From Afipia sp. (GTDB taxonomy: Bacteria > Pseudomonadota > Alphaproteobacteria > Rhizobiales > Xanthobacteraceae), in contig JAFVHU010000020.1 of NCBI GenBank assembly GCA_017474385.1, positions 1 to 61,912 on the forward strand: DNA of 61,912 nt, in the 5' to 3' direction. The notes under the pieces are model-generated. The model did no database searches. It had not been told where the DNA came from and was given only the letters and a program-made list of their open reading frames with translations. Below, piece by piece: positions 31,813 to 45,459 of this stretch. A program made the position numbers and the translations under genes. Every line of letters begins with the position of its first letter. The stretch's first letter is position 1.

Positions 31813-32454
31813 CTACCGAGAGATAGAGCGCATCCGCATGCGCGCGGCGGCGACTGCGACATCTGCAACCCGCGTCACGGTAAAGGGAAACAATTCGAGT
31901 TCGGCGGCGCGGGTTTGCGCATCTTTGTCGGCCGGAATGGTCACGAATGAGATTTCGTAAGGCGTCCAGCGCGTGATAATGCGCTTTTCGATTTCGCCGA
32001 TTTTTTCCGGTGCCTCGACCCGCACCTCGTTGATGGTGTAACCGACGGACACATTTCGAATGATCCGCTCTTTCACCATCGCGGCCATGCGATCAGCGTT
32101 CTCATCGACGCCCTTCGATGGAAACCGGATGGTCGCGAGGCCTTTGCCGGACTCGATCCGGGCCGCATCGACAACTCCGACTTGCGAAAATGTCGAATAC
32201 ATCGAATGGCTGTCGAGCGCCGGCGCGCCAGCAAGCAAACGTTCCATGTTCACGGCATCACGCGAGACGATAAGCGTCTCATCGAATGGAACGGCGGTAT
32301 CCCAACCGACATAACGGCGGCGGCGCACGGTCGCGCCTGTGGTAAAAATCACTTCGACGGTGCGGGCGGCTTCATCGAACGAATTGATCTCGCCGACACG
32401 GGTCTGCATCGGCAGGCCAGCGGGATCGGCATCACGGCTTTGCAGGGTTGTCAT
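31813..32454 (-). CDS. HK97-family prohead protease
   Basis: A 213-residue protein. It contains ALDSHSMYSTFSQVG with the catalytic histidine, and RNVSVGYTINEV with the catalytic serine, in the spacing of HK97 prohead proteases. It cleaves the scaffold-like part of the capsid protein. ATG 32454 (MTTLQSRDA) overlaps the portal stop by 23 bp. In some relatives the protease is fused to the capsid protein; here the two are separate. Confidence 0.82.
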   Translation of the reverse strand: MTTLQSRDADPAGLPMQTRVGEINSFDEAARTVEVIFTTGATVRRRRYVGWDTAVPFDETLIVSRDAVNMERLLAGAPALDSHSMYSTFSQVGVVDAARIESGKGLATIRFPSKGVDENADRMAAMVKERIIRNVSVGYTINEVRVEAPEKIGEIEKRIITRWTPYEISFVTIPADKDAQTRAAELELFPFTVTRVADVAVAAARMRMRSISR

Positions 32455-33958
32455 CTGTATTGTCCTCGGTCTGCTTGTCGCCCTTACCGATTGCCTTCGG
32501 CGAGATCGCCGGCCGGCGCGGATCGGTATCGAGCGCAATCTTGCGACGGTCTACATCCTTGAACCACTCCTCGATCTCATCGAGTTGCGTATCGGGATCG
32601 AGACCCCAGGCGGCGACAAATTGCGGCCAGGTCATGCGGCCTGTACGCACCGCCATCACATCGGCCTGCATGTCCTTGAGCGGATCAATCGGCTCATTCG
32701 CCGGCATGATCCATTCGACGGGATAGCCGACGGCGCGGCGCGGCAGAATGCCGGCGTCCTGCGCCGCCTCAGTCCAACGATCCCATAGCGGTTCAAGCAG
32801 CATCGCAACCAGCGTGTGATGCTGAAACTGCTCGATCATCCGGCGAAATTCGATCTTTCCGGCGCGCAGCGATGAAAAGTTTGCGCCACGAAGATCACCG
32901 GTTAACTGATCGTAGGTAATGCCCGCACCGGCCGCGAGCGTCAGCCAATTCGACATCAGCACCGATTCAAATTGAACCGATGCCGTCGGCGCGACCGTTG
33001 AAATCTTCTCGCCCGGCTCAAGATAATTGATCATGCCTGGCGAAAGGGCTTCAATCCGCCGTTTTGCGCCGTCGGGACCGGTTTCGGTTTTCGCCTTGTC
33101 AGCTATGGTGCGAGAGGCATCGGTTGTCTCCACGAACGCGGCCAAACAGGCCTCGATCCGTGACTTGACGACGACCGCCTCCTCAAGATCGGCGACATCA
33201 CGCCCCTTGAGAAGCACCGGCGCAACCCAGGGAACACCGCGCCCCTGGCCGATCCGGTCCTTGCGGTAGGCGTGCAGCATATCGCTCGCAGCGACACGAA
33301 CCGATGCGCTCGGCATCACAAGGCCACGTGCGCCGGGGTGCGTTGGATGAATCCAGTATCCCCTGCGCTTGCCGCGCCTGGTGTACTCAATTCCCTGATC
33401 GATAATGGTGTCGGATGTCATCACACGATCGCGCGAGGCGTCGAGGTGATCCGGCTCAAGCAACTGAAATTCAAGCGGCACAACGCCGGGCGGCACATCG
33501 TTGATTGACACACCAACCATGCGACCCAGCACCTCGCCGGATTCCACAATGCAACCGGTCGCGAGCGCGATCAGACCATCAATATGAAGCTGGCCCTCGG
33601 CGTCGCAATGCTTGCCCCATTTCTTCCAGGCTTTTTTGATCCGCTTGTCGAGCGCCTTGTTGCCGGTGTTCGGCTTCGGCATGATGCCGGCACCGACAGC
33701 GTGCGACACAACCGTCGTTTTGACGCGCGCGCCCCACCAGGTATTTCGCGACACATCCCGCGACCGAGCGCGCAGCGTCGGCAGCGCACCCTTGGTGAGA
33801 ACATTCGCCGAAGCTGTTGAGGAGCGCCAACCGGCGGTCCGCCGGCCAAACATCGCGCCATCGTAATTGCGCACATGGTCAAGGCTGATGCGCGCGGCCG
33901 CGCGACGCAGGCCACTCACCGGCGAAAAATAGCCGATGACGCGATCGAGAGCATTCAT
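32432..33958 (-). CDS. Portal protein (lambda B type)
   Basis: A 508-residue protein with an N-terminus SLDHVRNYDGAMFGRRTAGW and the portal pattern LRARSRDVSRNTWWGARVKTTVVSHAVGAGI, FQLLEPDHLD, GQGRGVPWVAPVL, GANFSSLRAGKIEFRRM. This is the lambda gpB family. It forms the dodecameric ring for DNA entry and exit. The proline-rich C-terminus is disordered. Confidence 0.9.
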   Translation of the reverse strand: MNALDRVIGYFSPVSGLRRAAARISLDHVRNYDGAMFGRRTAGWRSSTASANVLTKGALPTLRARSRDVSRNTWWGARVKTTVVSHAVGAGIMPKPNTGNKALDKRIKKAWKKWGKHCDAEGQLHIDGLIALATGCIVESGEVLGRMVGVSINDVPPGVVPLEFQLLEPDHLDASRDRVMTSDTIIDQGIEYTRRGKRRGYWIHPTHPGARGLVMPSASVRVAASDMLHAYRKDRIGQGRGVPWVAPVLLKGRDVADLEEAVVVKSRIEACLAAFVETTDASRTIADKAKTETGPDGAKRRIEALSPGMINYLEPGEKISTVAPTASVQFESVLMSNWLTLAAGAGITYDQLTGDLRGANFSSLRAGKIEFRRMIEQFQHHTLVAMLLEPLWDRWTEAAQDAGILPRRAVGYPVEWIMPANEPIDPLKDMQADVMAVRTGRMTWPQFVAAWGLDPDTQLDEIEEWFKDVDRRKIALDTDPRRPAISPKAIGKGDKQTEDNTDDNPAKP

Positions 33959-34340: not shown

Positions 34341-36383
34341 TTAACGCTTGAGCCAATCGCCGACGTTACGACCGAGCCATTCAGGATCGGCCGGCTTTGG
34401 TTCCGGCTCATGTTCGGCAAACGGCGTCGCCGGCAATTCGACAGGTGGAATGCCCTGCCCCGTTTGCGACGCGAACAATGTTGGCTCGCTCAACTCCGGC
34501 GGCAAGCCACGGCGCAACGCAAGCTCGCGCCATTGCTCCGGCGTGATCTGCGAAATGCCGAGATATTCCGCCATCGCCGAATTGTAGATGCGGCAATCGT
34601 GGAAATGGTTGTTCTTGATCTGCGCCCAGCGTTGGCCCGCGACGCGGCCGTGGATTTTGACTTGCTCAAGCCGGTCGCCGACAAGCTGCTTGAAATAAAC
34701 CTCATCGGCGAACATGCCGAAGTGACAGTATCCGTCGGGATCAACGGGCTTGCCTTCCTTGATGCCAGGTTCGCGCAGGAAGGAATAGAAATTGGCTTTC
34801 AGCGGCCAGGTGCCGACACCCCACAGCTTTCCGCCCTGCTTGATCTTGCCACCGGCGAGATCGATATCGATCAGCTTCGGCTGTCCGATCGCGGGCTTAC
34901 CCCAACCCGGAATACCCTTGATTCCCAGGATCACGTCATAACCCGTATCCGGGTGCAAACGCTGATGCTCGCGAATCCAGGCGAAGCACGTATTCGGGCG
35001 ATAGCCGGTATCGACCGCCAGCGCATCGAGCCTGCGATGGCCGCCGAACGCGTCGGGAAATTCGCAACCGATCGTATGCTTGAGCACATCGTCCCAAAAC
35101 GGGCCACGATGGTTTGCGGTGTCGCCGTCGATGTAACGCGCATCGACCAGCCACGATTCCCGATTGGCACCCCATGCGACGATCTCAAGCCACCCGCCGC
35201 GCATCTGCACGTCGAGGGCGGCCGTGTATATCAGACCTTTTGGCGGGATGTGGCCGCGCTTGATCCACTCCTCACGCCGCAGCATGAGCTTTTCGTGGTC
35301 TGGCGCGTCGCCGCGATACTTGAACGGCAGTCCGAGAACGAGGTTCGAATAGTCCTTTTTAGCGGTTTCCGTCTTGGCTTTGATCTTGTCCTCGGCGATG
35401 GCCTCATAGGACATCATCTTGGAAATGAACGCATCGACATGAAAGCCAGGATGATCGCCATCCTCGCGCGTCTTGATCCAACTGCCGGCGTCGATCGCAA
35501 GGATACGCTCGGCGTCGGAAATATCGTGACCGCAGTCGCAGCGATAGACACTGCGATGCGGATGCTGCTCATCGACTTTCAGATTGTCGTCGCGATGAAC
35601 GAACAGCGAGCCGCATTCCGGGCACTGGCAATGCCAATAACGCTGATCCGACGACTTGAATCGGAGATCGATGCGGCAATGGCCCTCGGTCTGGCCGGTT
35701 TCGTCGCCGGTATCGACCTCAGGCGTCGAAATGTCGAGAATCTTGAACGTCTTGAAGCGGCGAAACGCCGTAAAACGTCCGAAAAACAGGTTTCCAGGGT
35801 CGCCATAGCCCGGAATGTCCGTCCATTTCGAAAATTCGTCGCGGACGCCCTTTTTGATGGTTTTCGACGACAGGTCCATCACGGCATTGGCGTTGCCGAG
35901 GTAAAGCCGGCCGCCGGGAAAGACCTTTTCAAACGTCGTCGAGCCAGCGCCGGAGCGCGCCGTCTGCGGCAAGATCACGGTGCGCTTGATTTGCTTCTGC
36001 CAGGCGTCGATCAGCGGTTGCAGCTTGCCGCTGTTGAGATCGCGCAGCGCCTCAATGCCCGGCACCGCGTACAACATGTTCGCCGGCTCACGATCGGCGA
36101 CATACAGACACCATCCAAGCGCCAGGATCGAGGCACCGGACTGTTGCGACTTGCGCACCGTCACGAAATTGCAGGGATGATCATCCGACAGACAGTCCGC
36201 GATCTCGGTGAGATACGGCGCTCCGATTGCATTCCACAACTGGCCGGCGGCGGGGCCGTCAACGAGCACAAGATTTTCCGACAGCCAGCGCGACAGCGGC
36301 ACCGCCTCGGCCGGATTGATGATGTGCGCCAGCCGCGCAGCGATAAACTGTCGGGCAGATGGATGATCGCGCACGGCACTCAC
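34341..36383 (-). CDS. Terminase large subunit (GpA family)
   Basis: A 680-residue protein with the GpA signature. It has an ATPase part with RKSQQSGASILALGWCLYVADREPANMLY and TFEKVFPGGRLYLGNANAV, a zinc-like CQCPECGSLF ... YRCDCGHD cluster, and the nuclease part with ALAVDTGYRPNTCFAW. The GTG start at 36383 overlaps the small-subunit TGA. GpA enzymes cut at cos sites, so a cos-type genome end is expected. Confidence 0.92.
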   Translation of the reverse strand: MSAVRDHPSARQFIAARLAHIINPAEAVPLSRWLSENLVLVDGPAAGQLWNAIGAPYLTEIADCLSDDHPCNFVTVRKSQQSGASILALGWCLYVADREPANMLYAVPGIEALRDLNSGKLQPLIDAWQKQIKRTVILPQTARSGAGSTTFEKVFPGGRLYLGNANAVMDLSSKTIKKGVRDEFSKWTDIPGYGDPGNLFFGRFTAFRRFKTFKILDISTPEVDTGDETGQTEGHCRIDLRFKSSDQRYWHCQCPECGSLFVHRDDNLKVDEQHPHRSVYRCDCGHDISDAERILAIDAGSWIKTREDGDHPGFHVDAFISKMMSYEAIAEDKIKAKTETAKKDYSNLVLGLPFKYRGDAPDHEKLMLRREEWIKRGHIPPKGLIYTAALDVQMRGGWLEIVAWGANRESWLVDARYIDGDTANHRGPFWDDVLKHTIGCEFPDAFGGHRRLDALAVDTGYRPNTCFAWIREHQRLHPDTGYDVILGIKGIPGWGKPAIGQPKLIDIDLAGGKIKQGGKLWGVGTWPLKANFYSFLREPGIKEGKPVDPDGYCHFGMFADEVYFKQLVGDRLEQVKIHGRVAGQRWAQIKNNHFHDCRIYNSAMAEYLGISQITPEQWRELALRRGLPPELSEPTLFASQTGQGIPPVELPATPFAEHEPEPKPADPEWLGRNVGDWLKR

Positions 36384-36997
36384 TCCGCCGACGAACTGTC
36401 CTCGGCCGGCTTCTCCGGCGCTCGGCGCGCCAGCGCATCAAGCGATGTGGCGATCTCCCCGAGCATCCGGTTTTCGATTTGCTTCAGGACAACGCGAAGG
36501 CCATGCGCGCCGTCGCGCGTCACAGCCGCTGAGATTGTGTCCGCTTCCGTTTGAAGTCGCCGAACCGTGGCGACGATCTCCGCACCACATTCATCAACCG
36601 CGACTGCAAGCTGATCGACCCGAATTAGCTCACCGATCTTTTCTTCTAATTCGAGCCGCTTGCGTTCTGCCTCGTACCACGTGCGCTTGCGTAGCGCTTC
36701 GTCATACGAGTCGGGATCGACAGTCGGCGGCGTTGGATCGTCAATCGGTGCCGGGCGCTGCGCCTTGCTTGGATCATCATGACGGCCGCGCAGATAGTCA
36801 TACTGCGGCAGATTCACGCGAGCGATGTGACCGCGCGCATTCCGCTCGACAGCCAAGCCATGCTCGATCAGGTCTTTGACTTTTTTCGAAACCGCCTGTT
36901 TCGAGATTCCATCACGCGCTGCGATTTCGGTGATCGAGGCGGTGACGGCCTGCGGCCCCGCGTCAACCTGGGGAGGCACCTCGGTCAACTCGGTCAA
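36380..36997 (-). CDS. Terminase small subunit (Nu1-like) with winged helix
   Basis: A 205-residue protein. Residues about 15-65 (VTASITEIAARDGISKQAVSKKVKDLIEHG) form a DNA-binding helix-turn-helix. The C-terminal half is helical and charged (YEAERKRLELEEKIGELIR), as in Nu1-type subunits. The start is a TTG at 36997 or 36988, or the GTG at 36979; the initiation site is unclear. The preceding 37000-37107 region is the natural place for a cos site. Confidence 0.78.
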   Translation of the reverse strand: MTELTEVPPQVDAGPQAVTASITEIAARDGISKQAVSKKVKDLIEHGLAVERNARGHIARVNLPQYDYLRGRHDDPSKAQRPAPIDDPTPPTVDPDSYDEALRKRTWYEAERKRLELEEKIGELIRVDQLAVAVDECGAEIVATVRRLQTEADTISAAVTRDGAHGLRVVLKQIENRMLGEIATSLDALARRAPEKPAEDSSSAE

Positions 36998-38710: not shown

Positions 38711-39631
38711 CTATCCATGGGCAGAACTGGCCTTGCGCTCTTTCGCTAATTCGGTGCGCCGAGCAGCCGCACCGGCCCGCATCCGCGCCTCAATCTCCGA
38801 TTCGATGGGCTTGCCCGGCGCGTGCCGCTTCGGCTGCAAAGGCAGCTTGACCGTCAGCAGCCCCGGCGGCAATCCATCCGACAGCACACGCGACGCCGCG
38901 ACTTGCCCCGTGATCCACGGCATCGCACGTACCGCCGGCGCTGTCGGTTCAAACTCTTTCAGCTTGCCAGCGAGATCATTCGCGAGCGTCACAAGCGCGC
39001 AATGCCATGCGAAGTATTCCGCGCGCGCGTGCCCGATGTGAAGCACGGAAGGGTCCCAATGCAACGGCGAGCGTGGCGACATCCTGAAATCATACAAGCC
39101 ATCACGCGCAACAGCGCGGCCGCGATTGGGCATCAGCATCACCGTATCACCCTGCGCATCGGTGCCGTAGACGACGGGCCGATCGCGCAGCGCACCGATG
39201 CTGTCGCGAAATGTTGCTTTCATCTGGCGCGGTGTCGGACACTCAAAATCCCATGGCGGCCGCGCGCCGCCAATCGCCTTGCTGATGATCATCGCGCGAG
39301 GATTGAACTGCGCCTTGAGCAACGATGCGATTGCATCTTCGGCAATGGCGACGAGATCGCCGAACAGCTTGCCCACATTGTCCGCATCTTCAAAACGCGC
39401 CTCATCGGAAATCTTGCCGACAGCATCGGCGACAATTACCGCATCCTCATGCGGCGCACCGGGCACGAAACCGAATCCATCATAACCATGTCCGCTTGTT
39501 TGAATGCGCGCACCCAACTGGCCGTAGCTCATCACCACATCCCAGGCCGAGGCTGTCACCGGCTTGCCCTTCGGCAACTCCTCACGCATTGCCCATTGCA
39601 GCAATTTCTCGATATCGATTCTCTTTTTCAT
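38711..39631 (-). CDS. Conserved phage protein, function unknown
   Basis: A 306-residue protein, MKKRIDIEKLLQWAMREELPKGKPVTASAWDVVMSYGQLGARI ... YDFRMSPRSPLHWDPSVLHIGHARAEYFAWHCALVTLANDL. The length, even composition and start codon are convincing. It lies between the TGTCGGG array and the terminator, as the last gene of the replication region. Homologues, if any, are hypothetical proteins of alphaproteobacterial prophages; no function can be given. Confidence 0.7.
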   Translation of the reverse strand: MKKRIDIEKLLQWAMREELPKGKPVTASAWDVVMSYGQLGARIQTSGHGYDGFGFVPGAPHEDAVIVADAVGKISDEARFEDADNVGKLFGDLVAIAEDAIASLLKAQFNPRAMIISKAIGGARPPWDFECPTPRQMKATFRDSIGALRDRPVVYGTDAQGDTVMLMPNRGRAVARDGLYDFRMSPRSPLHWDPSVLHIGHARAEYFAWHCALVTLANDLAGKLKEFEPTAPAVRAMPWITGQVAASRVLSDGLPPGLLTVKLPLQPKRHAPGKPIESEIEARMRAGAAARRTELAKERKASSAHG

Positions 39632-39656
39632 CGTGGCTGTCCTGTTTCATCAATCA

Positions 39657-39943
39657 ATGTCGGGATGTCGGATCAATGTCGGGTTTGTTTTATCCGACAG
39701 CGATTGTTTTTCTGTTTCGATTCAATTCCTTATTTTCATTTCATGTCGGGATGTCGGGTTAGAGGGAGGGATACACATGAAAACATTTCTGAAAGTCGCC
39801 CCGCACCCCGCCGGAAAAATCCTACGTGTACACGCGCGCGACCCGACATCCCGACAGAGAAAAGACCTATCGCGTTGTCGCCGAAAGTGAATCGGCATCC
39901 TGTCGGGTTGCTACGTCCCGACAGCGACCCGACATCCCGACAT
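39657..39943. repeat. Mirror-symmetric array of TGTCGGG sites (two 103-bp arms)
   Basis: Ten exact TGTCGGG/CCCGACA heptamers and two one-mismatch copies lie in 285 bp. The left-arm sites start at 39658, 39666, 39677, 39693 (reverse orientation), 39744 and 39752. The right-arm sites mirror each of them exactly about position 39800 (39842, 39850, 39901, 39917, 39928, 39936). The sequence between sites has diverged between the arms. This suggests an inverted duplication whose protein-binding positions are kept, for example a phage replication origin or a regulatory complex site. It lies beside the primase and helicase genes. Confidence 0.75.
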
Positions 39944-40130
39944 GGCTACGGCCGGTTCCGCGACAAGCAGGGCAGCGAAACACAGTTTCAACGCTTGTCG
40001 CGCCCTCGATCGGTTCATAGAAAGCAGCGATCTCCTCCGGCATTTCATCCCACACACGCCCGGTGCCCGCGCAAGTCGGACACGCGCGACGCCCGCGAAA
40101 CTTCTTCGGCGAATCTGTATCTGCCCTCAT
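39867..40130 (-). CDS. Small double zinc-ribbon protein
   Basis: An 87-residue protein with CPTCAGTGRVWDE and FRCPACRGTGRS, two CxxCxGxG-type zinc knuckles like those of DnaJ. The ATG overlaps the helicase stop (ATGA). Its last third (HVGMSGRCRDVATRQD) is encoded by the right arm of the TGTCGGG array. It may be a DNA-binding or assembly accessory of the replication proteins. Confidence 0.68.
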   Translation of the reverse strand: MRADTDSPKKFRGRRACPTCAGTGRVWDEMPEEIAAFYEPIEGATSVETVFRCPACRGTGRSHVGMSGRCRDVATRQDADSLSATTR

Positions 40131-42043
40131 AGCGGCACCACATCCTCATCATGATCATGATTCGCATCGGCCGGATGCGGCGGTCTGTTGTCGTCGCGAT
40201 GATCACCGCGTCGCGGCTCCGGCACGTTTTGCAGCTTGACGTGCAGATACCGACGACCGCTATCAACGCGATCCTTTACAAATCCCTTCTGTGACATCGC
40301 AGTCGCGAAACTTTTCTCTTTCCACGCACGCACCGCATTGTGAGAACACCATGCCGAGAAAGCGTCATACATCGCGCGCGCGGTAACGACGGACGCAGGC
40401 TCGCCGGTTTTTCCATCAGCCGGCACCGCGACGACGCAATCGCCGACGAACGAGCCGACCGGGTCCATTTCCTCGCGATATTCCGCCGTCGCGTCGATCA
40501 CCTCTTGCGGCGTGCGCAGCCCATCGTTCAAATATTCGAGCGTACCGGCGACCAGCCAATTCAGAATGCCGCTGGCCTCGGCCCATAGCTCTTTCATCAC
40601 GTCATCCATCGGCCGCTTTTCCGCGTCGCTGATGGTGACGGGCCACGGCACGAAACGGATGCGCCGCCAAATGCCATGATCGACGCCGCCGATTTCCGGC
40701 TTGTGGTTGCCGGACAGCACAAGCTTGAAGTCCGGCCGGAACTCGAAAAAATCCTTGAAATTGTGCCGCGCCAACATCGGCTCGCCGCCGGTGAGCGACT
40801 TGATCAGCGCTTCCTTGAAATGAACATTGCGCTCCGGCTCCGATGCGCGCACGAGGCGCGCGCCCGGCAAGCGCGCGATGTCAGGCGAGGCCTGGCTGCC
40901 GCCCTTCTGCCCTTCACCAGACAGCGATTCAAACGCAAGCGTCATGCAATACTCGCCCATGATCCGCGACACGATTTCGATAAAGGTCGATTTCCAATTC
41001 GATCCGGTGCCGTAGTTGAACACAAGGCACTGCTCGCCGGTCAGGCCGGTCATGGCATAGCCGTGATAGCGTTGCAGAAATCTCCGCACCGCCTCGATCG
41101 GCTGAAAGCGATTGATCGCCACATCGAAGGCCGGACACGTCGCGACGGGATCGTAATGCACCGGCGCGGCCTTCGTCACATTGTCCGCGCGATTGTGCGG
41201 CCGCAGTTCGGCGCGCCAGCGCAGCTTTGTGAAGCCGCTGGCCTCGGTGCCGTCGGGATCGGGCACGGCCTCGCGGACAAAATGCACGGTGCCGTTGAGC
41301 ACGTTGAATGCCAACTTATCCTTGTCGAGGTCGCCAGGATTGATCGAGCGATGCGGCAAGGCCTGGTCGATCATGCCCTTGATCTTGCCGGCGTTGCCCG
41401 ATGACACCGCATATTTGCGCCGCGAGATTTTCCGCGCGTCGAGATACTCGCGCGCGATGTCACCCAGGCGCACCAAGCGCTCAAGACGCGCGATCTCGGC
41501 GTCCTGCGCGTCGCTCGGCTCCTCGACCTTTTCGAGATCGGCCAGCAGCGGCTTGGCCGCCTCGGCCTCCTCGATCGCCTTGCGCTCGCTCGGTGTGGCC
41601 GTCAGGAAATCCGCCTCAAGGGCGATGCGCGCGGCGGTGATCTGTGCCGAGCGCGTCGCGTGCTCGGTGCCGCCCTCGCGCCGCCAGTGCGTCTCTGCCC
41701 AGGCGTGCCAGCCGATCTCGCGGACGTGTAGCAGGCTGTCACCGAAGTAATTGAGCAGCCGCTTGCCGTTTCCGGTGTCGTTCTGAGGCTCCTCGGAACA
41801 CGCGGCGATCACCTCATCGGGAATATCCGCATCGGCGAGTGGCGGCATATGTTCCGGCATTGGAATGTCGTCGCCGTCAAAATCCGCATCAAACCCGCCC
41901 GCAAAATCCTGGGGGACCTCCCCCACGGCGGGGTGCGGGGCATCAGCGTCATAAGACGACGCGGAAAAGCCGTCGCCCTCCATCGCCGCAGCGATGTCTG
42001 CGAAGTCGGGACCGGATTCGGGAAACTGTTCGTTGCCGCTCAT
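40127..42043 (-). CDS. D5/P4-type SF3 helicase-primase protein
   Basis: A 638-residue protein. The first 100 residues are acidic and disordered. The D5 N-terminal part spans about 105-310. The SF3 helicase follows with FNYGTGSNWKSTFIEIV (Walker A), 'GARLVRASEPER' (Walker B region) and FKLVLSGNHKPEIGGVDHGIWRRIRFVPW (motif C and arginine region), plus a C-terminal winged helix. The Walker A reads GTGSNWKST where the family usually has NGKST. It drives phage DNA replication with the adjoining primase. Confidence 0.86.
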   Translation of the reverse strand: MSGNEQFPESGPDFADIAAAMEGDGFSASSYDADAPHPAVGEVPQDFAGGFDADFDGDDIPMPEHMPPLADADIPDEVIAACSEEPQNDTGNGKRLLNYFGDSLLHVREIGWHAWAETHWRREGGTEHATRSAQITAARIALEADFLTATPSERKAIEEAEAAKPLLADLEKVEEPSDAQDAEIARLERLVRLGDIAREYLDARKISRRKYAVSSGNAGKIKGMIDQALPHRSINPGDLDKDKLAFNVLNGTVHFVREAVPDPDGTEASGFTKLRWRAELRPHNRADNVTKAAPVHYDPVATCPAFDVAINRFQPIEAVRRFLQRYHGYAMTGLTGEQCLVFNYGTGSNWKSTFIEIVSRIMGEYCMTLAFESLSGEGQKGGSQASPDIARLPGARLVRASEPERNVHFKEALIKSLTGGEPMLARHNFKDFFEFRPDFKLVLSGNHKPEIGGVDHGIWRRIRFVPWPVTISDAEKRPMDDVMKELWAEASGILNWLVAGTLEYLNDGLRTPQEVIDATAEYREEMDPVGSFVGDCVVAVPADGKTGEPASVVTARAMYDAFSAWCSHNAVRAWKEKSFATAMSQKGFVKDRVDSGRRYLHVKLQNVPEPRRGDHRDDNRPPHPADANHDHDEDVVPL

Positions 42044-43350
42044 TTCAGCCTGTCATTCCAATCGGCCCCAACGCCGGGCCACATAAAGATTTGCTTGAGA
42101 TCAGATCGCGCGCGGCGCGCCTCGGCGCGTTTCATCGCGCATTGCGTGATAAAAGGATCGCTGTCGCCGTCGCACATATGGACCAGCGTCCGCGCACCGA
42201 TCGGCACCGGCATCGCCGGCGAATTGAGATCGGGATCGACGCCAGGCACCTTGCGTACGCGGCCGGCGGCCGTCTTGAGCGTCGGATGATTCAGCCGATC
42301 GAGCGCCTTGCCGGCGAGGTTGCCGAGATCGACACCGCTGCGGAAATGCGTGCGCGACACATCGCGGCCGGCGCGCACCAGAATGGTGAAGCCGGCGCAT
42401 GTGTTCTCGTTGCCCTCGCCCGTCACAATCCGCTCGGCCCGATCGGGAGCGCAGCCGCCGAGATCGATATAGCCGCCCTGCTTGGTGCCGCGCGATTTCT
42501 TGGCCGGTAGCAGCTCACCCGTATGCGGGTGACGGATCACGGCCTTGCCTTTCGGCTGCGACAGATCGAGCCAGGTGAAATGCAGTCCGGCGAACCGATA
42601 GCAATTGCCGCGCGCAATCTCCTCGGCCGGGCCGGCTGGATTTGGCCCCATGATCGGGCACAGCATTGCCGGGCCGCAATGCACCTCTAGCGGCTCATCT
42701 TCCTTGCCGTCAGCGAACATCGGGCAATCGGGCAGAAAGCCGATGCGCGCATTGTCCGGCACAAGAAGGCCGCGCAGCTTGAAATACTCGGCAAGCATAC
42801 CGCCGCCGTCCCAGCGCTCCGCTTTCAGCCAGTAATGCTCATGAAGCCGCGCGCGCTCCCGCTCGCGATACCGCGCGTTCGCCTCCTCGGCCGAGGCCCC
42901 GGCTTTCCATCCCTCATAGAACGCGCGCTTGAGATCATCGGGCCAGTCATCCGGCCGCGCATCCAGCGTCTTGCCGGCGCGATAGGCCGCACCGCCGGCG
43001 CGCTTGGCGCTCGCCGGTGTCTCGGAAATCTCGCGGCCGCCGCCGAGGTGATCGAGGATGGCGACAAAATCCTTTTTGGGATCGAGGCCCTTCTCTTTCG
43101 CGATGTAGCTGATTACGTCGCCGCCATCGGCGCAGGCGGCGCAAACCCACTTCTCGCCGTCGCACTCGAACCGGCCGTCAGTCTTGGACTGGAAATCTTT
43201 CGAGCAGAACGGACACGGCCCGACGCTTTTTCCGTGCGGCCATTTCCGGTCCGGCCGGCCGTTGCGGAGCCGCACAAGTCGGCCAGCGATCTCATCGACC
43301 CGGTTGCGATCCTTGATATCGAGGATCTGTTGATCTGACAGCCGGGTCAT
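42040..43350 (-). CDS. CHC2 zinc-finger / Toprim primase
   Basis: A 436-residue protein. The zinc finger near residues 45-75 has CPFCSKDFQ ... WVCAACADGGD, the CHC2 primase type. A toprim-like part follows, with IVTGEGNENTCAG (the glutamate) and MCDGDSD (the acidic pair). It primes phage replication. The ATG at 43350 is divergent from brnT; its 3' end overlaps the helicase gene. Confidence 0.84.
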   Translation of the reverse strand: MTRLSDQQILDIKDRNRVDEIAGRLVRLRNGRPDRKWPHGKSVGPCPFCSKDFQSKTDGRFECDGEKWVCAACADGGDVISYIAKEKGLDPKKDFVAILDHLGGGREISETPASAKRAGGAAYRAGKTLDARPDDWPDDLKRAFYEGWKAGASAEEANARYRERERARLHEHYWLKAERWDGGGMLAEYFKLRGLLVPDNARIGFLPDCPMFADGKEDEPLEVHCGPAMLCPIMGPNPAGPAEEIARGNCYRFAGLHFTWLDLSQPKGKAVIRHPHTGELLPAKKSRGTKQGGYIDLGGCAPDRAERIVTGEGNENTCAGFTILVRAGRDVSRTHFRSGVDLGNLAGKALDRLNHPTLKTAAGRVRKVPGVDPDLNSPAMPVPIGARTLVHMCDGDSDPFITQCAMKRAEARRARSDLKQIFMWPGVGADWNDRLK

Positions 43351-44167: not shown

Positions 44168-45459
44168 TCACAGCGCCCTCGCCACATCGATGCGACGGCC
44201 AAGCCACCGCATCACGTTCGTCGCCATCGAGTTGCCGAGCGATTTATATCGCAGCCCGTCGGATGCTGGCTTTCCCCGGAACGGGATCAGAGTGTAGCCG
44301 TCACGAAAACCTTGAAGGCGCTCGCACTCGATCGGCATCAAACGACGAACAGCCCATCGTTCCGCGCCGAACGATGCGACGATGTTGCTTTCATCTTCCT
44401 GACGCCGGCCTGCATAGCCGCCCTTGCCGGACGATTCCGCGCCGCGCGTTAGCGTCGCGGCGATTGGCGGCGCATGAACTACGTATGATTCTAAGTCAGC
44501 CGCATTGCTGCAATTTGCCTTTGCCAACAAGGGATGCGCGACATCGTCGTTAAAGAAACCTCCGCGAAGCGTTCGCATCGGGATCAATGTTTCCGTCTCC
44601 GCGTCGATCCGGCCCATGCCGCCGGCGTTGAGACAAAGCGATTTCTCCGGAATACCCCCCCTGCAACGATCAGGCCAACGTCGCAATCGAAGTCTGTTCC
44701 AAGCCCGCCACCACCCTTAGAGCGTGCGCTAATTGTGGGAGCAACTGTTTGCCCCGGTTCCCGGCGCGGCGCAGGATTCCCGCACAGGCTTTCGCGCTCA
44801 AAAAGTACCGCTGCGGCACGTCGCCAGTCTCCAAGATATCCGACAACGAACACACGCCGTCGTCGTTGAGGGACAGCCCGGCCAAACCCGTCCACTCTGA
44901 CAAACTGAGCGTCAAGCACTCGCCATGCGAGGCCGTAAGCGCGTTCGTAGCCTGGGACAATTCCCGCAGATTGCCAGCCGCCGGCGGGGACTTCGATTCT
45001 GCGCCCGGCAAGCAATCCCAAAAAGCTTGCAAAGTCGCGTCCGGCGTTGCTCGAAAGGACGCCGGGGACGTTTTCCCAGACCAGCCACGCGGCGCGATAC
45101 TTGCGAGCAATGGCAGCGTAGGTAAGTGTGAGCGAACCACGGACGCCATCCATTCCAGCGCGGAGTCCGGCAACGCTGTAGTCTTGGCAGGGTGTTCCTC
45201 CGACGAGAAGATCGATAGCTGCATCGGGCCATTCCTCGAATTTTGTCATGTCGCCGAAATTCGGCGGCGCATTACCGCTCCACGCCGTGCCCGGCAGATT
45301 CGAGCCGTAGTGATGCGCCAGCACCGCCGACGGAAAATCAGGACCACGCGAATAATCGTGATCGGGATCGAATTGCGAGAAACCGAACGGCGTCCAGCCA
45401 AGCGGATGCCACGCAACCGTGGCCGCCTCGATCCCGCTGCACACCGAGAGATAATTCAA
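44168..45459 (-). pseudogene. C5 cytosine DNA methyltransferase, frame broken at a G7 tract
   Basis: The N-terminal part (45459 down to about 44655) has SVCSGIEAATVAW, LLVGGTPCQDYSVAGLR with the catalytic PCQ cysteine, WENVPGVLSS and FGRAVPQRRRRVFVVGY. After a run of seven G (plus-strand C 44655-44661) the frame turns into unrelated sequence. The proper C-terminus (IPEKSLCLNAGGMGR, RLMPIECERLQGF, KSLGNSMATNVMRWLG) continues in another frame to 44168. One extra G restores the whole enzyme. It begins with a TTG that overlaps the previous stop (TTGA). It could protect phage DNA from host restriction, or be phase-variable, or carry a sequencing error. Confidence 0.8.

Follow-up and report, generated by a model that had tools for sequence, protein, structure and literature searches.

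The origins of PICI lie 3′ of rep and consist of two sets of iterons that flank an AT-rich region, and their function was tested by deletion; according to the excerpted text of the source (PMC6092414), this organisation is shared by no other known bacterial replicon. SaPI origins are located directly downstream of rep and are recognised by the C-terminal domain of Rep, and the C-terminal domain of Cch2 binds its own repeats, as stated in the consulted parts of PMC7581432. Among the points made in the consulted parts of PMC4234260 are that the P4 alpha protein binds its origin repeats via a winged helix, that stem-loop origins have been proposed 3′ of similar SF3 helicases, and that phage BPP-1 is nearly identical to BIP-1.

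Here we describe an array of short sites next to the gene of a P4-family helicase in a prophage of Afipia sp. It lies in a stretch of 61,912 nucleotides (contig JAFVHU010000020.1), the whole of which is called the window below. Coordinates refer to the window unless another record is named.

Results

A mirror-symmetric array of sites

The segment 39658-39942 holds 12 sites, ten of them exact copies of TGTCGGG/CCCGACA and two with one mismatch. They are arranged in two arms. The left arm (39658-39758), which is distal to the helicase gene, has six sites at offsets 0, 8, 19, 35 (reversed), 86 and 94: L1 (TGTCGGG, 39658-39664, +), L2 (TGTCGGA, one mismatch, 39666-39672, +), L3 (TGTCGGG, 39677-39683, +), L4 (TCCGACA, reversed and with one mismatch, 39693-39699, -), L5 (TGTCGGG, 39744-39750, +) and L6 (TGTCGGG, 39752-39758, +). 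The right, helicase-proximal arm (39842-39942) is the left arm mirrored about position 39800; it carries R6 (39842-39848, -), R5 (39850-39856, -), R4 (39901-39907, +, reversed relative to the right arm), R3 (39917-39923, -), R2 (39928-39934, -) and R1 (39936-39942, -). All six pairs are exact about 39800, the coordinates of mirror partners summing to 79600 and the partners lying on opposite strands, and the lone reversed copy of each arm obeys the same symmetry. The members of a doublet are 8 bp apart, and the third site follows 11 bp beyond. One extra site with a single mismatch (CGCGACA) occurs at 39959, beyond the array.

Exact TGTCGGG is present 21 times in the window, compared with 9.75 expected, and ten of these copies are inside the 285 bp of the array. 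The 14-mer TGTCGGGATGTCGG has four copies in the genome assembly (4.48 Mb, 84% complete), and all four are in the array. The mirror score of the array was 5.0. When the 1 kb around it was dinucleotide-shuffled 1,000 times, no score exceeded 2.0, which was also the highest value among 120 other tiles of the window. With six of six pairs in register and no shuffle above 2.0, the large mirror-symmetric array described in the initial annotation is real. The same annotation held that the DNA between the sites has diverged while sites and positions were kept, and this was borne out: the two arms are alike at 20 of 59 non-site positions. No switch in GC skew is seen at the array.

The helicase gene and its neighbours

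The array is placed between the helicase gene and the late genes, all of which are on the minus strand. The helicase gene (40127-42043, -) encodes a P4-family primase-helicase of 638 aa, the proposed initiator and binder of the array; the protein includes a D5_N domain, an SF3 core and, towards its C terminus, a PF03288 region. The protein scores 209.7 bits with the model TIGR01613 'phage/plasmid primase, P4 family', above the cut-off of 108.7. The PF03288 match at residues 524-598 reaches 22.0 bits (cut-off 21.4), and we take this region to be a winged helix; the C-terminal domain as a whole covers approximately residues 476-638. The closest solved structures are chains of 'Putative primase C962R' (8iqh, E 2e-19); the helicase also matches 7ola 'DNA primase' (E 2e-10), which is presumably the Rep protein of SaPI5.

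Upstream of the helicase is a gene for a primase-like protein (42040-43350, -; PHROG 'DNA primase', weak DUF7146). Primases resembling it were detected at 58 of the 84 other array loci from the searches described below (E 1e-3; flank lengths vary). The first gene beyond the array encodes a 306-aa protein of phrog_9306 (38711-39631, -) and is followed on the same strand by genes for a tail-completion protein and both terminase subunits, with that of the small subunit (36380-36997) about 2.7 kb from the array.

The helicase stop and the start of the array are separated by 184 bp, and a small ORF for a CXXCXGXG zinc-ribbon protein (39867-40130, -) overlaps both. That the right arm codes for the end of this protein, as had been noted before, is correct for the four outer sites (39901-39942) but not for the inner doublet (39842-39856), which lies outside the ORF. 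The zinc-ribbon protein had also been considered as a binder of the sites. This is not supported, because tblastn found a homologue at none of the 84 other array loci (E 1e-3; flank lengths vary) and because only 86 bp lie between the helicase stop and the array in locus L061.

Several further observations were made around these genes. In the sister prophage introduced below, a cysteine-rich ORF of 71 codons (CTRC...CPRCGC; L088 8005-8220, -) occupies the place of the zinc ribbon; similarity of the two was not detected at E 1e-3. A BrnT/BrnA toxin-antitoxin pair (PF04365, PF14384; 43386-43962, +) interrupts the replication module, whose genes are on the minus strand. Two ORFs in different frames, 44584-45459 and 44168-44686 (both -, both PF00145), encode the N- and C-terminal parts, respectively, of a C5 cytosine methyltransferase. 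An ORF of 184 aa (44670-45224) with no Pfam match at E 0.01 overlaps 44584-45459 in another frame. The genome also has a second P4-family helicase (L331; G000 contig 120:38212-39147), in the 3′ region of which no mirror array was found above shuffles.

Close relatives keep the layout and change the site

The nearest relative is another prophage of Afipia sp. (L063; G001 contig 6, JANINQ010000006.1), whose helicase is 67-68% identical to that of the window. This sister prophage has twelve sites at near-identical offsets about one centre, with six of six mirror pairs. Its three readable doublets are spaced by 9 bp, compared with 8 bp in the window, and its sixth left site is two mismatches off. 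In L061 the site is TGTAGGG in both arms, with degenerate third and tenth places. Four other loci, L060, L089, L090 and L091, carry GAGGGTT, GCGAGCTT, GCGAGGGTT and GCGAGGGT, respectively, at the corresponding places (assigned partly by eye) and have detector scores of 9.0-10.5; the array is also present in L060 and L089, whose helicase makes up the last part of a much longer protein. Spellings of the site among relatives that keep the layout include TGTAGGG, GCGAGGGTT and ATGACGC.

A comparison of the window with eight relatives gave 62-79% identity in site columns and 38-50% in spacer columns; the figure for the sites is lowered by the change of motif itself. Relatives without the sites, or with other spacing, were the case against the array named in the initial annotation. 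Close relatives were found to keep the spacing, and their sites change in concert; some distant relatives of the helicase have another layout or none.

The array is common 3′ of P4-family helicase genes

We scanned the kilobase 3′ of the helicase gene at 160 loci, the best 80 of more than 500 each from genome contigs and viral contigs. The detector applies a twelve-place mirror template to any 7-mer, with a threshold of 5.5; a first version without a low-complexity filter was overrun by GCGCGC palindromes. The template was derived from the window, G001, L060, L061 and L089-L091, and these match by construction. Of the 160 loci fetched, a redundant set, 159 could be tested, and 91 of them scored at least 5.5. 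No control reached this value: the maximum was 4.5 among 159 shuffles, one for each locus, and 5.0 among 151 upstream regions. A non-redundant set of 140 helicase loci was made from the scan loci, 13 further loci and the window, minus loci at least 90% identical in the helicase. Of these, 79 pass 5.5 and stand above every shuffled or upstream control. Loci with scores above the threshold include L120 of Xanthobacter sp. YC-JY1 (10.0) and L107 of Bradyrhizobium sp. BTAi1 (8.0). The other 61 are below the threshold; some use other layouts or places (A2, RR1-A), and others show no visible reason. The array is not universal with P4-family helicases.

Its geometry is conserved. In the 30 loci scoring at least 9, the mean offsets are 0, 9.0, 19.7, 36.0 (reversed), 85.9 and 94.8 with standard deviations of 0.7-1.8 bp, compared with 1.1-2.6 that the slack of the detector alone would give if the offsets were uniform. 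From end to end the array measures 285 bp (SD 5.7); outside the sites, its two arms are alike at a mean of 32% of positions. A single doublet spacing per locus (8, 9 or 10 bp in the readable doublets) was seen in 21 of 30 loci, and spacings differing by one in the other nine. Counted at one mismatch, the array and 60 bp on each side hold 11-16 sites per locus (mode 13); 'twelve' is therefore the template and not a strict count.

For a phylum-wide sample, 40 of 62 listed matches were fetched and the other 22, the window among them, were left out; 13 of the 40 regions beat their own shuffles by more than 0.5 for at least one word length. Locus L328 (G121:C1:241700-244400), from the same phylum but another class, has the geometry of the window with the motif ACGTCCA and a score of 9.0. 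Another locus, L322 (G208:C126:1-680), has a mirror layout of five same-direction sites per arm without a reversed site, at offsets 0, 9, 20, 62 and 71 and with the motif GGTGACA. The best repeats in the P4-family 3′ regions L333, L335, L336 and L337 include GGTGAA, GTGAACA or GGTGAACA, words that resemble the P4 type I iteron. This iteron, GGTGAACAG, is absent from 39650-39950 of the window. Among plasmids, a locus of Methylobacterium currus (L104) scored 5.5, and two Bradyrhizobium loci (L102, L103), which are outside the 140, show degenerate repeats by eye only.

Search by DNA doublet

The array was also searched for independently of the helicase. The doublets GCGAGGGTTGCGAGGG and TGTAGGGATGTAGGG were used as plain DNA queries in viral contigs and gave 134 loci, some of them on contigs already in the helicase scan. 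Arrays were present at 51 of the 134, and 47 of these 51 have a helicase gene within 1.5 kb that points at the array. Three of the four arrays without a helicase are no more than 300 bp from where their stretch of sequence ends; for the fourth, L407, this distance is about 550 bp. Where the doublet occurred without an array, a helicase was present in 14 of 83 loci. The link between array and helicase gene is tight (Fisher p 8e-19, with relatedness left in).

The doublet of the window itself, TGTCGGGATGTCGGG, was found at 55 loci in viral contigs, and none of the 55 has an array or an adjacent helicase. We dismissed these loci as chance matches; what is conserved is not the motif by itself. When the DNA of the array region was compared with annotated phages, only short matches at chance level were obtained.

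Other features of the array DNA

An AT-rich gap in the helicase-distal arm (39700-39743, GC 0.30) is a candidate unwinding element. The most AT-rich segment sits in the distal arm and not between the arms, the centre of the window's array having a GC content of 0.54 (flanks 0.61 and 0.55). Over 30 loci, this gap, which separates the fourth and fifth sites of the distal arm, has a mean GC of 0.34 and the centre one of 0.485, compared with 0.64 in the flanks. In 27 of the 30, the distal-arm gap has no higher GC than its counterpart in the other arm. In alignment, a stretch like TAAGTTATTGA recurs in the distal-arm gap of L105, L188, L205, L106 and others; it could be a site for a host factor or part of the unwinding element.

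The centre contains an alternating purine-pyrimidine tract of 18 bp (39823-39840) beside the proximal inner doublet. The longest run of this kind at the centre has a mean of 13.8, compared with 6.6 in dinucleotide shuffles and with 5.6 and 6.9 in the two flanks. It is at or below the 5% level in 39 of 50 loci, and in 40 of 50 its start is no more than 25 bp from the inner site of the helicase-proximal arm. Alignment shows CGCCCCGCACCCCGCC (39797-39812, +) in the sister prophage too, similarly far from the centre. A plus-strand ORF of 37 codons (39777-39890), with a purine-rich stretch ahead of its ATG, begins in the array centre and reads through the inner right-arm sites.

Named phages

Ten of the 970 named phages that carry a helicase match were tested. 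AmM-1, Pan4, RR1-A, A2, CL2 and RcapNL beat their own shuffles (5 or 20 each). The far arm of RcapNL is cut off by the end of the record. In RR1-A, two genes and a distance of about 1.8 kb separate the array from the helicase, which is why this phage scores only 1.5 in the scan of the 3′ kilobase. Pan4 is mirror symmetric with other offsets and passes at 6.0. Pthi1 has repeats that are visible by eye but not to the detector (3.5, shuffle maximum 3.5), and its site is near-palindromic; phi105 is marginal (2.0 versus 1.5 in shuffles). BPP-1 has no array in the 1 kb tested, since its 2.0 versus 1.5 comes from two pairs and inspection showed no array. RcRhea gave nothing above shuffles.

Among the ten, only Lactobacillus phage A2 (AJ251789.2) has an annotated origin in the stretch examined. 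This rep_origin (32208-32717 of that record) begins at the 3′ end of the P4-family primase gene and contains a reduced mirror array of ACGGGA(G), with three mirror pairs and two unpaired sites. Its 6-mer score is 3.0, and the best of 20 shuffles gave 1.25. The annotation reportedly goes back to experimental work by Moscoso and Suarez in 2000. Phage CL2 has a similar reduced array with TGTGACGG (2.75 versus 1.5).

Site motif and helicase sequence

We compared the similarity of site motifs with the identity in five segments of the helicase (49 of 50 loci; 1,128 of 1,176 pairs). The partial rank correlation is strongest for the winged-helix segment, at 0.189, a value equalled or exceeded in 3 of 500 permutations. 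The SF3 core comes a close second (0.16; 6 of 500); there is no correlation for the D5_N segment (-0.07). Of 495 single columns, 594 ranks first and 595 fifth, both in the winged-helix segment, and the second to fourth ranks go to columns 309, 350 and 404, which lie outside it. The correlation is weak and no more than suggestive, and permutation leaves shared ancestry in place.

Discussion

We conclude that the 285-bp array is very probably the replication origin of the prophage and that the P4-family helicase encoded at 40127-42043 (-) is its likely initiator. The initial annotation had considered an origin, a partition-type complex or a looping regulator; the conservation of the array and the annotated origin of A2 speak for the first, and the other two found no support.

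The helicase is also the best candidate for the protein that binds the array. Its C-terminal winged-helix region would recognise the site of about 8 bp, and the six sites of an arm would be the platform on which helicase subunits assemble. Because the arms are mirror images, two such assemblies would be set face to face around the centre, from where they would be dispatched in opposite directions, so that replication would start bidirectionally. The strands would likely first open at the distal-arm AT-rich gap and at the central alternating purine-pyrimidine tract. A more far-reaching version of this model is possible, and we offer it with considerable reserve: the DNA would fix the number and placing of the helicase subunits. 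Each arm would seat one hexamer, with a site for each of its six winged helices, and the mirrored pair of arms would make two hexamers face each other around a tract that would aid a change in the form of the duplex and its opening. The template would have been kept for a long time while initiator and site changed together, which would give each phage a private origin code on a common scaffold. Caution is needed in equating one arm with one hexamer, because some loci have extra sites and Pan4, A2 and L322 have other layouts.

Other functions of the array were weighed. In a transcriptional role, a phage regulator such as a late activator or the 306-aa protein would bind the sites and loop out the DNA that separates the late genes from the early replication genes. 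The location of the array between replication and structural genes fits such a role, and a homologue of the 306-aa protein starts 15-386 bp beyond the array at 32 of the 84 other array loci. However, this homologue was not detected at the remaining 52 loci (E 1e-3; flank lengths vary), and a scan for promoters of the sigma-70 type found none in 39500-40200. The layout follows the helicase gene, moreover, and its reduced form is in the annotated origin of A2, so that control of transcription seems very unlikely. It is extremely unlikely that the array is a site for packaging (cos/pac) or partition. Repeat arrays are found at sites of both kinds, and the terminase genes are on the same strand; but the gene for the small terminase subunit is some 2.7 kb off, no ParA or ParB was present among 19 window ORFs scanned with Pfam, and the array goes with the helicase gene even in L060 and L089, where the proteins are longer.

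The arms might instead extrude or fold as a large stem-loop, an origin in which the fold is recognised rather than the sequence of the sites, as proposed for pRN1 and Bordetella phage BIP-1. The single strand of the array folds much better than shuffles (z -6.56, 0 of 100 as good), and the consulted part of PMC4234260 proposes stem-loops 3′ of such proteins. It is mainly the sites that pair, however: the DNA separating them is not complementary, with agreement at 20 of 59 positions in the window and a mean of 0.32 in 30 loci. We therefore rejected the stem-loop as the main account despite the good overall fold. A stem-loop also needs neither reversed single copies at fixed offsets nor a doublet spacing that is kept throughout a locus. 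BPP-1, without a site array in the 1 kb tested, may have a different kind of origin. Together, these points make recognition of a structure very unlikely in the window.

If the array is indeed an origin bound by its helicase, the template can be used to locate replication origins, by sequence alone, in many phages that encode P4-family helicases. The organisation with two iteron sets, held in the excerpted text of PMC6092414 to be confined to PICI, has a related form that is common in alphaproteobacterial tailed phages, and L328, A2 and CL2 show such a form outside the alphaproteobacteria. The constant geometry with changing sites would be a natural library for the choice of DNA by winged helices, and six sites per arm would make the loading of a double hexamer directly testable with one purified helicase.

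The consulted parts of PMC6950654 and PMC7145576 contain nothing on a layout of six plus six mirrored sites, and a search of open-access titles and the beginnings of abstracts, a scope that subscription papers mostly fall outside, found none that describes it. What is new here is the 6+6 mirror template in tailed phages, the concerted changes of its motif and the alternating purine-pyrimidine tract at its centre.

Among the systems compared, pRN1 ORF904 and BIP-1 resemble the window in having an origin 3′ of the gene of an SF3 helicase, but this origin is a stem-loop without iterons in the consulted parts of PMC4234260. Cch2 of SCCmec is a helicase of the D5_N/Primase_Cterm kind that binds repeats downstream of its own gene via the C-terminal domain; it differs in having three iterons of 5 nt only, and the consulted parts of PMC7581432 report no mirror template. 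P4 with its alpha protein, ori1 and crr is similar in that the helicase of the window passes the 'P4 family' model TIGR01613; it differs in its type I iteron GGTGAACAG, which the array of the window lacks. A2 has mirrored ACGGGA(G) sites in two arms and a TATATA-rich centre at the 3′ end of a P4-family primase gene, but only three mirror pairs and other offsets.

The likeness to PICI and SaPI, as far as their published descriptions in the consulted texts go, lies in an array directly 3′ of the gene of the initiator helicase, in two sets of short iterons and in a self-loading helicase, that of SaPI5 being of the same Primase_Cterm/D5_N kind. Unlike these elements, the window holds a full tailed prophage, with both terminase subunits and a tail-completion protein adjoining. 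Its two sets are exact mirror images of six sites each at fixed offsets, a comparison made with the text on PICI and SaPI. The centre, with a GC content of 0.54 and an alternating tract, also departs from the PICI organisation given in the excerpted text, the AT-rich segment being in the distal arm. The array was not classed as a PICI origin because it belongs to a full phage and its centre is not AT-rich. On the analogy with these systems, the best reading is that the array would work like a SaPI/PICI or P4 replicon, as the origin of a self-loading initiator helicase.
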